Of a stretch of DNA of 35,313 nucleotides, positions 16,897 to 29,923 are shown one piece after another. The translations under genes were made by a program, and so were the position numbers. The DNA comes from Oscillospiraceae bacterium (GTDB taxonomy: Bacteria; Bacillota; Clostridia; Oscillospirales; Oscillospiraceae). The stretch is taken from positions 1-35,313 of the forward strand of contig JAFTGE010000094.1 in NCBI GenBank assembly GCA_017458085.1. Reading direction: 5' to 3'. The notes under the pieces were generated by a model. It ran no database searches and was not told the DNA's origin. It was given only the letters and a program-made list of their open reading frames with translations. Position 1 is the stretch's first letter. Each line of letters starts with the position of its first letter.

Positions 16897-16949
16897 AGGA
16901 CGCTGTTTTTAATAAAATCAACAACTGCCGGTTTTGTGCATAAAATGTG

Positions 16950-16978
16950 TTGACACTTGTGTAGAATCCTGATAAAAT
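16950..16978 (+). promoter_or_regulatory. Promoter of the potABCD transcript
   Basis: TTGACA (16950-16955), 17 bases, TAAAAT (16973-16978). The start site should fall near 16985, giving a leader of about 358 bases before potA. Confidence 0.8.
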
Positions 16979-16984
16979 AAGGCG

Positions 16985-17342
16985 TCTCAATTGGATAAGA
17001 GTTTATCCGAAGCAAGATATCGACCGCTCATTTCGATGAGCTAAGGCCACACGGACAGCCGGGTCGGATGCCGATGAGCCGCAGGTGCGGTGGCAACTTC
17101 TGTTGCCTTATTGATTGAGTTAAAAGCTCAAGTTTTATAAATTTGTAAAAGCATACAAATCTGTGAAATGGTCAATAAGAGTAGTAAAAGTAATCTTTGC
17201 TATATAGACTCTCAACATCCATTTGGGCCGCCGCCCCCACGCCGGGGGTGGAAGCTTTGCGTAGCATATTTTTACGCGAATTTGGCTTTTCAAACAGTCT
17301 ATGCTTTTGCATGGGCTGTTTTATTTTTGGGGGGAAGGGAAC
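16985..17342 (+). promoter_or_regulatory. Long structured leader of potABCD, candidate riboswitch or attenuator of unknown class
   Basis: The leader contains a compact fold. Stem GGATAA-GAGT-TTATCC is at 16993-17008. CGACC (17021-17025) pairs with GGTCG (17062-17066) and encloses GCTCAT-TTCG-ATGAGC (17026-17041). CCGC-AGGT-GCGG is at 17079-17090 and GGCAAC-TTCT-GTTGCC at 17092-17107. CTCAAT at 16986-16991 can close the domain by pairing with ATTGAG at 17114-17119, or that strand can pair instead with CTCAA at 17127-17131. An A+T-rich linker, further hairpins and a strong terminator follow. ATAGACT (17204-17210) is complementary to part of the terminator's 5' arm and could act as antiterminator. 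None of the riboswitch cores I know (guanidine, PRPP, SAM, c-di-AMP, Moco, T-box) fits. Confidence 0.6.
17293..17328 (+). terminator. Attenuator terminator directly before potA
   Basis: AACAGTCTATGC pairs along its full 12 bases with GCATGGGCTGTT (two G-U pairs), loop TTTT, tail TTATTTTT. It ends only 14 bases before the potA ATG. A terminator in this place can only act to control entry into potABCD. Confidence 0.85.
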
Positions 17343-18491
17343 ATGAAGAAAATCATAGAGCTGAAAAATATCAGCAAATCCTTCGATGGGGAGGTCGTGC
17401 TCGACCACATCAACCTCGACATCTATGACAATGAGTTTATCACCCTGCTGGGGCCTTCCGGCTGCGGCAAGACCACGACGCTGCGCATCATCGGCGGTTT
17501 TGAGACCCCTGACACCGGCGACGTGATCTTTATGGGCGAAAACATCAACGATATGCCCCCGTATAAGCGCAACGTCAATACCGTGTTCCAGCGCTACGCC
17601 CTGTTCCCCCACCTGAACGTTTACGAAAACGTCGCCTTCTCCCTGCGGGAAAAGAAATGCTCCAAGGACGAGATCCACCAGAAGGTTACGGAAATGCTGG
17701 AGCTGGTTGCCCTCAAGGGCTTTGAAAAGCGCAGCGTGTCCAGTCTCTCCGGCGGACAGCAGCAGCGCGTCGCCATCGCGCGGGCGCTGGTCAACCGGCC
17801 CAAGGTCCTGCTGCTGGACGAGCCGTTGGCGGCCCTTGATCTCAAGCTGCGCAAGGATATGCAGAAGGAACTGAAAAACATCCAGAAGGCCACGGGCATC
17901 ACCTTCGTCTTTGTCACCCACGACCAGGAGGAGGCCCTGTCCATGTCCGACACGGTGGTGGTCATGTCCGAGGGACGCATCCAGCAGATCGGCACCCCCA
18001 TCGACATCTACAACGAGCCGGAAAACGCTTTCGTGGCCGACTTCATCGGGGAGAGCAACATCGTCGACGGCATCATGCTTGAGGACCGAAAGGTCTCCTT
18101 CTCCGGCCATGTGTTCGACTGCGTGGACGCGGGCTTTGCCAAGCGTGAGGCGGTGGACGTGGTCGTCCGGCCCGAGGACGTGGATGTCGTGCCCGAGGAG
18201 AAGGGTATGCTCCGCGGCGTGGTCACCTCCGTCACCTTCCTGGGTGTGCACTACGAGATCATCGTGGATATCAACGGCTTCAAGTGGATGATCCAGACCA
18301 CCGATTTTGTGGACGTGGACGAGCATATCGGCCTGTACATCGAGCCGGACGCTATCCACATCATGAAAAAGTCCGAGTACTCGGGCATGTTCGGTGACTA
18401 CTCCACCTTCTCCGACGAGATGGAGGAGATCGGCGGCGTCGAGATCGAGGAGCTGGGCGAGATCGAGACGGAAAGCGAGCAGGCAACATGA
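17343..18491 (+). CDS. potA: Spermidine/putrescine ABC transporter ATP-binding protein PotA
   Basis: A 382-residue ABC ATPase. Walker [12 protein letters not shown] (about residues 37-47), signature [16 protein letters not shown], Walker [13 protein letters not shown] and switch [10 protein letters not shown] are all intact. The C-terminal 130 residues form the regulatory TOBE domain typical of PotA/CUT1-type importers ([14 protein letters not shown]). The protein ends in an unusual acidic tail ([19 protein letters not shown]). The start at 17343 lies two bases after GGGGGGAAGGGA; the in-frame upstream ATG at 17301 sits inside the terminator hairpin. The gene ends in ATGA, a four-base overlap with potB. 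Polyamine substrate is inferred from the four-gene order. Confidence 0.92.
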
Positions 18492-19357
18492 ACAAGAAAA
18501 CCAACGCCCTGGTGCAGCGTCTGACGCTGACGCCCTATTCGGTGTGGGCGGTGCTGTTCATCGTGGTGCCGCTGATCTTTGTGGCCTACTATGCCTTCAC
18601 CGATTCCTCCTTTAGCTTTACCTTTGACAATATCAGCCGCTTCTTCACCGCCACCTCCGTTATCGACGACGGCGAGACTGTGCGCGAGGTGCACACCTAT
18701 CTTGTCATCTTCTGGCGCAGTCTGAAGCTTGCGGTGATCTCGACGCTGATCTGCCTGCTGATGGGCTATCCGCTGGCCTACATCATGTCCCGTGCCAGCG
18801 CCCGTACCCAGAACGTCCTGCTGACGCTCATTATGATTCCCATGTGGATGAACTTCCTGATCCGCACCTACGCCTGGATGACCATTCTGCAGGACACCGG
18901 TATTCTCAACGGCTTCCTTGCCGCTCTCGGCCTCGGCCGTATTCATATCATCGGCACCGAGTCCGCGGTCATCATCGGCATGGTCTATGACTACTTTCCG
19001 TATATGGTGCTGCCGATCTACTCGGTCATGGCCAAGCTGGACGTTAAGCTCCTCGAAGCCGCGCGCGACCTCGGCTGCCCCTCTGTCAGCGTGCTGCGCC
19101 GCGTGATCTGGCCGCTGAGCATTCCCGGCGTCCTCTCCGGTGTGACCATGGTCCTGATCCCTTCCATCAGCACCTTCTACATCTCCCAGAAGCTGGGCAA
19201 CGGCAAGTTCTTCCTCATCGGCGACGCCATTGAGGGACAGTACACTGCCAACAATCTGCATTTTGCCGCGGCCATCGCCTTCATCCTGATGGTGATCCTG
19301 CTGGCCTGCATGGCCCTGATGCAGAAGCTTGCCAACCGCAAGCTGATCGTGGCATAA
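18488..19357 (+). CDS. potB: Spermidine/putrescine ABC transporter permease PotB
   Basis: A 289-residue inner-membrane permease of the MetI-like type with six predicted membrane segments. The ATPase-contact EAA loop reads [20 protein letters not shown]. Its N-terminus [21 protein letters not shown] is the usual PotB start. It forms the translocation channel with PotC. The start codon overlaps the end of potA (ATGA), so translation is coupled. Confidence 0.92.
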
Positions 19358-19369
19358 GGAGGCGGAGCT

Positions 19370-20206
19370 ATGAACCGTGCATCGAAAATCTACACCGCGC
19401 TCATTATGATCTTCCTCTTTGCGCCCATCGCCATCCTCCTGGTCTTTTCCTTTAACCAGAGCAAGAGCCTGTCGGTTTTCTCCGGCTTCTCGCTGTACTG
19501 GTACAGGGAGCTGTTCCGTGACGCGGAGACGCTCAAGGCCGTTCGCAACACGCTGCTGCTGGCCGTGTCCGCCTCGGTGATCGCCACGCTCATGGGTACG
19601 GCCGCCGCGGTCGGCATCCACCGCCTGCGCAGCAGGGTGCTCCGTTCCGCCATGGACACCGTGACCAACATCCCCATGATCAACCCCGACATCATCACCG
19701 GTATCTCCCTGATGCTCATGTTCGTGTTTGTCGGCCGTCTGTTCGGCGCCGCCACCAGCCTGAACTTCGGCACCATGCTCATCGCGCATATCACCTTCTG
19801 CCTGCCGTATGTCATTTTGCAGGTGCTGCCCAAGCTCCAGCAGATGGATAAGTCCCCGCCCGAGGCGGCAATGGATCTGGGCTGCACGCCGCTGCGCGCC
19901 TTCTTCAAGGCGGAGCTGCCGGAGATTATGCCCGGCGTGGTCACGGGCCTGATCATGGCCTTTACCCTGTCGCTGGACGACTTCGTTATCAGCTACTTTA
20001 CCTCCGGCAACGGCTTCCAGACCCTGCCGATCCGCATTTACAACATGACAAAGAAAACCGTCACGCCGAAGATGTACGCCCTGGCAACCATCATCTTCTT
20101 CGTGATCCTGGCCCTGCTGCTGATCTCCAACCTCTCCGACCCTGAGGCCGCCGAGACGACCCGCAAGGCAAGAAAAAAACGCAAGGCTGCCAAGACCAAA
20201 GCATAA
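19370..20206 (+). CDS. potC: Spermidine/putrescine ABC transporter permease PotC
   Basis: A 278-residue permease, partner of PotB. Six membrane segments, the PotC-type start YTALIMIFLFAPIAILLVFSFN, EAA loop PEAAMDLGCTPLRAFFKAELP and the family stretch SLDDFVISYFTSG. A basic Lys/Arg-rich tail (RKARKKRKAAKTKA) ends the protein in the cytoplasm. AAGGAGG lies eight bases before the ATG, twelve bases after potB. Confidence 0.92.
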   Translation: MNRASKIYTALIMIFLFAPIAILLVFSFNQSKSLSVFSGFSLYWYRELFRDAETLKAVRNTLLLAVSASVIATLMGTAAAVGIHRLRSRVLRSAMDTVTNIPMINPDIITGISLMLMFVFVGRLFGAATSLNFGTMLIAHITFCLPYVILQVLPKLQQMDKSPPEAAMDLGCTPLRAFFKAELPEIMPGVVTGLIMAFTLSLDDFVISYFTSGNGFQTLPIRIYNMTKKTVTPKMYALATIIFFVILALLLISNLSDPEAAETTRKARKKRKAAKTKA

Positions 20207-20227
20207 TTCATGTGAAGGAGGACAACT

Positions 20228-21340
20228 ATGAAAAAACTCACCGCCCTGCTGCTTGCCGCCGTGCTGCTGTGCAGCGTGTTCCTCACCGGCTGCGGCTCCA
20301 AGTCCAAGACCCTGACCCTCAATGTCTACAACTGGGGCGAGTATATCTCCGACGGCTCCGACGATTCCTTCGACACCGTGCGTGAGTTCGAGAAGTGGTA
20401 CGAGGCTGAGTATGGCCAGAAGATCCACGTTAACTACGACACCTACGCCAGCAACGAGGATATGTTTGCCAAGCTCTCCAGCGGCGCGGTCAGCTTTGAC
20501 GTGGTCATCCCCTCCGACTATATGATCGCCCGCATGCGGGAGAACGATATGCTCCTGCCCCTCAATTTCGATAATATCCCCAACTATCGGTACATCGACG
20601 AGAGCTTCCGCGGGCTGTACTATGACCCGGAAAATGTCTACACCGTGCCCTATACCTACGGCGTGGTGGGCGTGATCTACAACGCCGAGGTCGTGGATGA
20701 GGCCGACGCCCAGGGCTGGGATCTGCTGTGGAACGAAAAGTACAGGGGCGATATCCTCCAGTTCAATAACTCCCGCGACGCCTTTGCCACCGCCCAGTAC
20801 AAGCTGGGGCTGGACGTCAACGACACGGCGCACGCTTCCTGGGAGAGCGCCCTGGCGGAGCTGAAGAAGCAGGCCCCGCTGGTCAAGAGCTATGTCATGG
20901 ATGAAATCTACAACATGATGGAGTCCGGCGAGGCGGCCATCGGCGCCTACTACGCCGGCGACTACTTCACCATGCTCGATGCCCAGGCCGACGGCGTGGA
21001 GCTCAAGTTCTACTATCCCGATCCCACCAACTACTTCGTGGACGCCATGTGCATCCCCAGCTGCTGCCAGAATCAGGAGCTGGCCGAGATCTTCATCAAC
21101 TACATGCTCTCCGAGGAGCCGGCCATCGCCAACGCCGAGTATATCTACTACGCCAGTCCCAACGCGCTTGTATATGAAAACGAGGACTACATCGACGAGA
21201 TGGGCGAGGAGGCCATGGAAATCCTTTATCCCGGCATCGACGACTTCGGCGCGCTGTACAATCAGTACGCCTACCGCAGCCTGGACGAGCAGACCCTGGA
21301 CTACGTCAACAGCCTTTGGGAGTCGCTGAAGATCAACTGA
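20228..21340 (+). CDS. potD: Spermidine/putrescine-binding lipoprotein PotD
   Basis: A 370-residue periplasmic-binding-type protein exported as a lipoprotein: MKKL start, hydrophobic core and lipobox LTGC (Cys about residue 18). The mature start LNVYNWGEYISDG is the classical PotD/PotF polyamine-binding signature. It continues with VNYDTYASNEDMFAKLSSG and VPYTYGVVGVIYN, also conserved. The Asp/Glu and Trp/Tyr residues in these stretches form the polyamine site in characterised PotD proteins. GAAGGAG is eight bases upstream. Last gene of the operon; the segment right after its stop is a hairpin-rich repeat element and not a plain terminator. Confidence 0.93.
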   Translation: MKKLTALLLAAVLLCSVFLTGCGSKSKTLTLNVYNWGEYISDGSDDSFDTVREFEKWYEAEYGQKIHVNYDTYASNEDMFAKLSSGAVSFDVVIPSDYMIARMRENDMLLPLNFDNIPNYRYIDESFRGLYYDPENVYTVPYTYGVVGVIYNAEVVDEADAQGWDLLWNEKYRGDILQFNNSRDAFATAQYKLGLDVNDTAHASWESALAELKKQAPLVKSYVMDEIYNMMESGEAAIGAYYAGDYFTMLDAQADGVELKFYYPDPTNYFVDAMCIPSCCQNQELAEIFINYMLSEEPAIANAEYIYYASPNALVYENEDYIDEMGEEAMEILYPGIDDFGALYNQYAYRSLDEQTLDYVNSLWESLKIN

Positions 21341-29846: not shown

Positions 29847-29923
29847 GCGGCTGTAGCTCAGCTGGATAGAGTGCCAGACTCCGACTCTGGAGGTCGTGGG
29901 TTCGAATCCCGTCAGCCGTACCA
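29847..29923 (+). tRNA. tRNA-Arg (anticodon CCG)
   Basis: A full 77-base cloverleaf including an encoded CCA. The parts are acceptor GCGGCTG, D-arm GCTC-AGCTGGATA-GAGT, anticodon stem CCAGA/TCTGG with loop CTCCGAC (anticodon CCG at loop positions 3-5, reads CGG), T-arm GTGGG-TTCGAAT-CCCGT, then CAGCCGT-A-CCA. The first acceptor pair is G-U rather than G-C. tRNA-Arg genes are common integration sites, and the accessory region starts directly after it. Confidence 0.95.

Follow-up and report, generated by a model that had tools for sequence, protein, structure and literature searches.

What the long leader of a polyamine uptake operon responds to, and whether it belongs to an RNA class of a new kind, are the questions raised by this locus. 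The window analyzed here (the whole 35,313-nucleotide contig JAFTGE010000094.1 of an Oscillospiraceae bacterium, assembly GCA_017458085.1) carries potABCD at 17343-21340, with the ATG of potA at 17343 and a leader of ~358 nt ahead of it. An earlier note, made from the sequence alone, described this leader as a possible new riboswitch for polyamines or related ligands. The structured, attenuating leader of polyamine genes holds up on closer analysis; the novelty of its core does not, and control by a ligand is our interpretation. We consider the leader to attenuate transcription in cis, most likely as a riboswitch whose ligand is a polyamine (spermidine being the first choice) and which turns uptake off when bound, and we hold this reading as probable.

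A structured leader with a catalogued core

The consensus promoter recognized in the earlier note is indeed present, with 11 of 12 consensus letters (Table 1), and the 5' end of the RNA is predicted near 16985. Promoter-like sites lie upstream of 115 of 130 related leaders, as compared with 148 of 650 shuffled sequences, the end of the -10 element falling a median of 52 nt 5' of P2. The fold of the window's leader has z = -5.3, with 0 of 100 shuffles equally stable; together with the covariation in related leaders described below, this bears out the claim that the leader is structured.

That known riboswitch classes did not match the core had been taken as a sign of novelty, and an Rfam hit to a known class had been held to count against the proposal. 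A cmscan search places Rfam family RF02440 (SpF59_sRNA, "ldcC RNA") at 17021-17074, at full length (1-54) and with 70 bits against a gathering cut-off of 37.2, the sole such match in the window's genome. The core of the leader is thus already catalogued, and hence not new. Rfam types this family as 'Gene; sRNA', models it as 54 nt with the P2 and P2a stems only, and names no ligand in its description. Besides RF02440, no Rfam family scores above its cut-off in the leader of the window.

Within the core, the stretches CGGACAG and GCCG are kept in 133 of 134 leaders. Because its letters are invariant, leaving no variation by which to judge the pairing, the CGG/CCG pseudoknot can only be called possible. 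In P3, on the other hand, 5 of 109 leaders have C-G in place of G-C.

Architecture and covariation of the conserved RNA

The conserved RNA is a cis leader of ~220 nt, running from P0 to P9 and about four times the length of the Rfam model. Its elements, with the promoter, terminator and operon, are collected in Table 1.

Table 1. Features of the potABCD leader and operon, in window coordinates
Feature	Position	Strand	Remarks
Promoter	16950-16978	+	-35 TTGACA 16950-16955, 17-nt spacer, -10 TAAAAT 16973-16978
P0 hairpin GGATA/TATCC	16993-17008	+	Loop AGAGTT can alternatively pair with the 3' end (P1a)
P1 5' strand	16998-17018	+	P1a AGAGTTTAT 16998-17006; P1b AGCAAGAT 17011-17018
Core module (RF02440)	17021-17074	+	cmscan; covariation of P2 closing pair, P2a and P3
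P2 CGACC/GGTCG	17021-17025/17062-17066	+	Closing pair covaries
P2a	17026-17041	+	Covariation
P3 GGC/GCC	17045-17047/17058-17060	+	Covariation
Possible pseudoknot CGG/CCG	17052-17054/17071-17073	+	Strands near-invariant
Extra hairpin CCGC/GCGG, this lineage	17079-17090	+	Predicted fold; recognized by eye in many aligned potA leaders
P4 hairpin GGCAAC/GTTGCC	17092-17107	+	6/6 pairs with changes on both sides; among top mutual-information pairs
3' domain (P5-P9)	17108-17190	+	In no Rfam family; covariation; own model R1
P5	17108-17114/17172-17178	+	3' domain
P6	17115-17119/17127-17131	+	3' domain, conserved hairpin
P7	17132-17139/17162-17169	+	3' domain
Distal stem replacing P8 and P9 in the window	17141-17147/17154-17160	+	3' domain
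Antiterminator strand	17147-17164	+	AAAAGCATA 17147-17155 with TATGCTTTT 17300-17308; CTGT 17161-17164 with ACAG 17294-17297
Conserved tail AGAGTAGTAAAAG	17178-17190	+	3' domain
P1 3' strand	17193-17212	+	P1b ATCTTTGCT 17193-17201; P1a ATAGACTCT 17204-17212
Intrinsic terminator	17292-17328	+	13-pair stem 17292-17321, T-rich tract to 17328; 14 bases before ATG 17343
potA, spermidine/putrescine ABC transporter ATPase	17343-18491	+	NCBIfam NF043075, 575.6 bits, cut-off 550
potB	18488-19357	+	Best NCBIfam match PotB, below curated cut-off
potC	19370-20206	+	Best NCBIfam matches MMSYN1_0195 then PotC, below curated cut-offs
potD	20228-21340	+	Best NCBIfam match PotD, below curated cut-off

Covariation was judged on 109 leaders below 80% identity and 134 below 90% (gaps counted as differences), drawn from a set that excludes 10 loci that are too short, one chance pattern match (L078) and 18 whose insertions are large or whose spacing is odd. 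Across 65 proposed pairs, 85.7% of cells in the 109 leaders can pair, as compared with 33.6-44.4% for slid partners, in a plain MAFFT alignment unfitted to structure and with the structure drawn on one of the aligned sequences, which favors its own pairs over slid ones. Both sides change in 48 of the 65 pairs, the kind of covariation asked for in the earlier note. Cells with double changes number 488, against 191.5 after shuffling and with 0 of 500 shuffles reaching that figure, a test inflated by relatedness in that kin sequences can beat shuffles even without structure. Mutual information over the 134 leaders, which assumes no structure, places P2a, the P2 closing pair, P4, P6 and P3 among its top 18 pairs, 7 of the 18 being other than helix pairs of the model. 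Pairing in the 109 leaders is weak at P9 (62.7 and 70.3%) and at both ends of P7, the outer A.C position there reaching 30.4%; most pairs of P5 and P2 are nearly invariant there and thus uninformative. Also in the top 18 is the pair 17132-17169 that ends P7, where A.C and G.U replace each other (72 A-C, 33 G-T and 11 A-T in 134 leaders), a pattern of letters that suggests a conserved wobble pair.

The long-range helix P1 was assessed by an alignment-free comparison over 130 leaders, with 4 set aside for want of landmarks, in which the pairing energy averages -21.6 kcal/mol for a leader's own strands, -16.2 for swapped and -12.5 for shuffled ones; in 35 of the 130, none of 30 swaps does as well as the own strands. 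In the alignment, P1b pairs in 83.5% of cells, and all 7 pairs in its main run change on both sides; P1a, whose columns are badly aligned, pairs in 43.3%. The 40 nt 5' of P1b, the region of P0, have a mean fold of -6.7 as compared with -4.2 when shuffled.

P1, P5, P7 and the conserved antiterminator were all missing from the stem list of the earlier note, which is extended accordingly. That note had also proposed mutually exclusive partners for ATTGAG (17114-17119). The letters are there on both sides (CTCAAT at 16986-16991, CTCAA at 17127-17131), and the downstream pairing is the conserved hairpin P6; the upstream partner is not general: of the 130 leaders, 24 have CTCAA(T), and 22 of those 24 stand before potA. 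Within the window's genus, some leaders carry insertions of ~100 nt or more in a variable hairpin (L012, L026/L149 and L187 in the P8 region, L007 in the P6 region), rich in inverted repeats by eye, with the conserved strands staying in place.

An attenuator worked by a leader peptide would be compatible in principle with a leader that ends in a terminator, and such an origin was considered. We give it almost no credence: no conserved frame runs between the core and the 3' strand of P5, the core-to-P5 length modulo 3 being spread over 33, 51 and 46 leaders, and the sequence changes track base pairs instead. A phage origin was likewise rejected, the leader having no match in 50,697 phage records.

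Distribution and gene context

Among 149 relatives, the majority of them congeneric, RF02440 occurs in 95; the figures are 33 for 293 class genomes and 18 for 398 phylum genomes, and the samples overlap. A pattern scan of named genomes returned at least 118 stretches, the matches listed including Paenibacillus, Bacillus, Neobacillus, Acidaminococcus, Phascolarctobacterium, Blautia, Flavonifractor and one metagenome-assembled genome labelled Spirochaetes. In all, 190 loci were gathered, these pattern matches included; the motif could be located in 188 (all but L070 and L072, where the regular expression did not find it, and counting L078, the chance match), and after setting aside 13 without a readable downstream reading frame, L078 among them, 175 of the 188 are readable within the set distance.

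The link to polyamines drawn in the earlier note from a single operon proves to be general: the first gene belongs to a polyamine cluster, in the same orientation as the leader, in 175 of 175 readable loci, which are not independent cases in that 10 locus pairs have an identical core stretch (some being one contig in two collections). These first genes fall into four clusters and one single: PotA 61, PotB 1, OKR-type decarboxylase 46, SpeD 44 and carboxynorspermidine synthase-like 23. Names were given to whole clusters through one NCBIfam-named representative each, rather than protein by protein, the window's PotA and the SpeD representative scoring above their cut-offs and the decarboxylase and carboxynorspermidine synthase being best matches below theirs. 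Further operon clusters are spermidine synthase, agmatinase and carboxynorspermidine decarboxylase, with representatives above NCBIfam cut-offs, and PotD, below; nine large protein clusters hold 376 of the 396 operon reading frames. A PotB homologue is visible in 29 of the 61 potA loci, most being cut short downstream, and in 26 of the 30 potA loci among the pattern matches listed.

The Rfam typing of RF02440 invites the alternative that the RNA is a small RNA acting in trans, and a terminated leader would indeed appear as a short RNA, as F59 did in pneumococcus (PMC3395615). We regard this as very improbable, given the placement and orientation of all 175 readable loci before polyamine genes and an antiterminator matched to the downstream terminator; F59 itself, as far as the pertinent part of that report goes, lies between SP0915 and SP0916, apparently in the direction of SP0916 (PMC3395615).

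Terminator and antiterminator

The near-perfect terminator that had been noticed ahead of potA is confirmed (Table 1), and terminator-like hairpins are found in 107 of 130 leaders, as compared with 5 of 60 shuffled stretches. They precede potA in 34 of 35 leaders, OKR-type decarboxylase genes in 35 of 40, SpeD genes in 26 of 36 and carboxynorspermidine synthase-like genes in 7 of 14. In the 23 of 130 leaders where no terminator was detected (7 of the 14 carboxynorspermidine synthase-like and 10 of the 36 SpeD leaders among them), the P7/P9 strand was paired against the region of the ribosome site, as a gauge of possible translation control, giving -13.1 for own and -11.4 for shuffled sequences (n=20, with sites assigned by a crude pattern).

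When a 30-nt segment is slid along the leader and paired with the 5' arm of the terminator, one sharp peak appears at the P9/P7 3' strand (-15.1 vs -8.3 shuffled). With a 34-nt strand from the 107 terminator-bearing leaders, the mean is -15.3 kcal/mol for own, -12.0 for swapped and -8.8 for shuffled partners, where, as in all the energy tests, letters and not dinucleotides were shuffled. The share of shuffles that equal the own pairing falls below 5% in 79 of the 107 leaders, and that of swaps in only 22. This conserved pairing and the prevalence of terminators support the earlier claim of attenuation, and, judged by sequence, the structured domain is coupled to an expression platform, with terminator and antiterminator sharing the P7/P9 3' strand. 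The antiterminator would then be the aptamer's own strand, which is the usual logic of an OFF switch.

A different antiterminator, ATAGACT at 17204-17210, had been put forward in the earlier note. As a general antiterminator this region, the P1 3' strand, was rejected, its pairing over the 107 leaders being at chance level (own -7.8, swapped -7.8, shuffled -7.6). The pairing is nonetheless present in the window (-8.3), and forcing it there gives -110.2, nearly equal to the -111.8 of the conserved antiterminator, so that ATAGACT is a possible antiterminator within the window itself.

The window's conserved antiterminator duplex, at -11.3, is weaker than the mean. In its leader, the antiterminator state (-111.8) is some 15 kcal/mol less stable than the best fold (-126.9), and in a transcript ending at 17308 the mean pair probability of the antiterminator is 0.000. 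With the antiterminator thus energetically disfavored, switching would have to be kinetic or aided by a factor.

Leaders that lack the core

The 3' domain was searched for on its own with a model, R1, trained on 46 leaders and limited to P5-P9 and the tail. R1 matches the window at 75.6 bits, the window's leader being one of its 46 training rows, and finds 91 of the 100 pattern loci examined (of at least 118), training rows included. It also finds 38 of the 293 class genomes, all 33 RF02440 genomes among them, 96 of the 149 relatives (relative to RF02440, 7 genomes lost and 8 gained) and 19 of the 398 phylum genomes (1 lost, 2 gained).

This search brought out 14 leaders, in 14 genomes, with the 3' domain and without RF02440 (G107, G216, G283, G312, G425, G024, G056, G059, G064, G068, G074, G087, G457 and, as a second locus, G008); a check of every one against Rfam, with E values as high as 5 allowed, gave no RF02440 match. 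On visual inspection, the core has been excised from eight (L238, L239, L240, L244, L245, L242, L196, L201) and replaced or diverged in the others (L204, L215, L195, L241, L243, L230). With R1, the core-less leaders of the genus score 73-101 bits, inside the range spanned by core-bearing ones. The terminator is kept in 12 of the 14, with an antiterminator pairing of -14.7 (vs -8.8 shuffled), and a P1-type pairing reaches -15.9 (vs -10.7 shuffled). Their first genes all belong to polyamine clusters (PotA 8, OKR 5, SpeD 1). Genome G008 has both forms: core-less L245 (C27:36021-36119) before potA-potB, and core-bearing L025 (C92:6133-6319) before potB-potC with no potA between. Faults of draft-genome assembly could lie behind single core-less cases.

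Since core-less leaders stand before the same kinds of gene, the RF02440 core is separable from the 3' domain, and the persistence of such leaders at polyamine genes complicates the idea of the core as the ligand binder. A tentative reading, to which we lend well under an even chance, is that of a two-module switch, in which polyamine sensing and switching would both lie in the 3' domain (P5-P9 and the tail), the core (P2/P3) being a detachable second sensor or tuner. Either this holds or, alternatively, the core-less leaders have recently lost sensing. The coexistence of the two forms amounts to a natural experiment on which part senses.

The same data bear on an attenuator worked by protein or ribosome, in which a polyamine-responsive protein would bind the RNA, or polyamines would act indirectly on transcription or translation, with no RNA pocket. 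A site bound by a protein might well outlast the core, as the 3' domain does, and the antiterminator state is disfavored by energy alone. We nevertheless consider such an attenuator rather unlikely, as a large RNA with many near-invariant unpaired positions across clostridia, Paenibacillus/Bacillus and Acidaminococcus/Phascolarctobacterium looks like an aptamer, and no recurrent regulator gene is present in the operon stretches examined.

The putative ligand and the direction of the switch

For the polyamine-binding riboswitch that we favor, direct binding, the identity of the ligand and the OFF direction are what we infer from these patterns. With polyamine bound, P1 and P5-P9 would close and occupy the P7/P9 3' strand, the terminator would form, and polyamine uptake would be shut off; with no polyamine, that strand would instead pair to the terminator's 5' arm, letting transcription proceed into potABCD. 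Through uptake or synthesis, all the genes downstream serve to enlarge the polyamine pool, and negative feedback fits both routes.

SpeD, spermidine synthase and the carboxynorspermidine enzymes make triamines, and their presence in these operons therefore points to triamines as the ligand. OKR-type decarboxylases make agmatine, cadaverine or putrescine, and with such a gene first in 46 of 175 loci, a riboswitch for another ligand (agmatine, putrescine, cadaverine or a SAM derivative) has to be weighed; pneumococcal SP_0916, according to the part of PMC7531197 that concerns it, is an arginine decarboxylase. We think another ligand unlikely, in view of the triamine-making enzymes and of the window's own genome. 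That genome (93.5% complete) has no match to PF01564 (spermidine synthase), PF01276 (OKR decarboxylase), TIGR03331 (SpeD) or NF043000 (carboxynorspermidine synthase), models that find control matches in 11, 4, 1 and 1 of 14 genomes, respectively, other decarboxylase folds and Bacillus-type SpeD lying outside this search. The bacterium thus probably imports the polyamine that it senses, and pathway intermediates are less likely ligands there. A Spermine_synth-domain match is present in 29 of 55 genomes of the genus (none in the window's), mostly in reading frames of ~530-600 codons (e.g., G819:C15:33816-34229), longer than ordinary spermidine synthase.

Relation to known polyamine-responsive RNAs

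Our search, confined to open-access papers, found one validated natural polyamine riboswitch class and no account of the full architecture described here. That class, the spermidine riboswitch of Salvail et al. (2023, PMC10853860), is presented there as a SAM-I variant with a four-stem-junction aptamer and 13 representatives, an OFF switch acting through a terminator on ldcC, speB, speE and speD; further polyamine riboswitch classes are expected in the same paper. The window's leader resembles it in polyamine genes and in terminator OFF logic and differs in its core. Membership in that class was ruled out, the window having no SAM-I match at gathering level, nor any at E up to 1 over 16900-17400. 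By analogy, the leader may work as that class does though not a member of it. If polyamine binding holds for this RNA, natural polyamine riboswitches would gain a second, far commoner class, governing both uptake and synthesis in many Bacillota, and this would explain an RNA listed as an sRNA at least since 2012.

That listing is of F59 (srn235, SN20) of Streptococcus pneumoniae, the RF02440 RNA, which shares the 54-nt core (P2, P2a) and, in the relevant portions of PMC3395615 and PMC7531197, also precedes a polyamine gene, SP0916; F59/srn235 is entered as an sRNA in lists in PMC12323649 and PMC4387999. Whereas the RF02440 model is a 54-nt sRNA, the RNA of the window adds P0, P1, P3-P9, a terminator and an antiterminator, and stands before potABCD. 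Search terms returned nothing on this RNA from the text available in PMC10043782, PMC7266159 and PMC11109978. The Rfam alias 'ldcC RNA' suggests earlier naming by somebody, and a prior description is possible.

Other structured elements have been described near polyamine genes. The ABC-leader before potABCD in Haemophilus and Pasteurella (Naville and Gautheret, 2010, PMC2965389) is, in the section devoted to it, likewise a candidate attenuator, belongs to Gammaproteobacteria, and is likened to the present leader by gene context and description rather than by sequence. The potE motif, a weak candidate, and the odc1 uORF motif, a uORF element (Brewer et al., 2021, PMC8632094, in the entries for these motifs), are set beside it by description only.

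Two further RNA features were observed in passing. A tRNA gene lies at 29847-29920 on the plus strand of the window (66 bits), and a c-di-GMP-I riboswitch match (78.4 bits; L058:2514-2605, plus strand) is found within ~1 kb of a polyamine-decarboxylase leader on the opposite strand.
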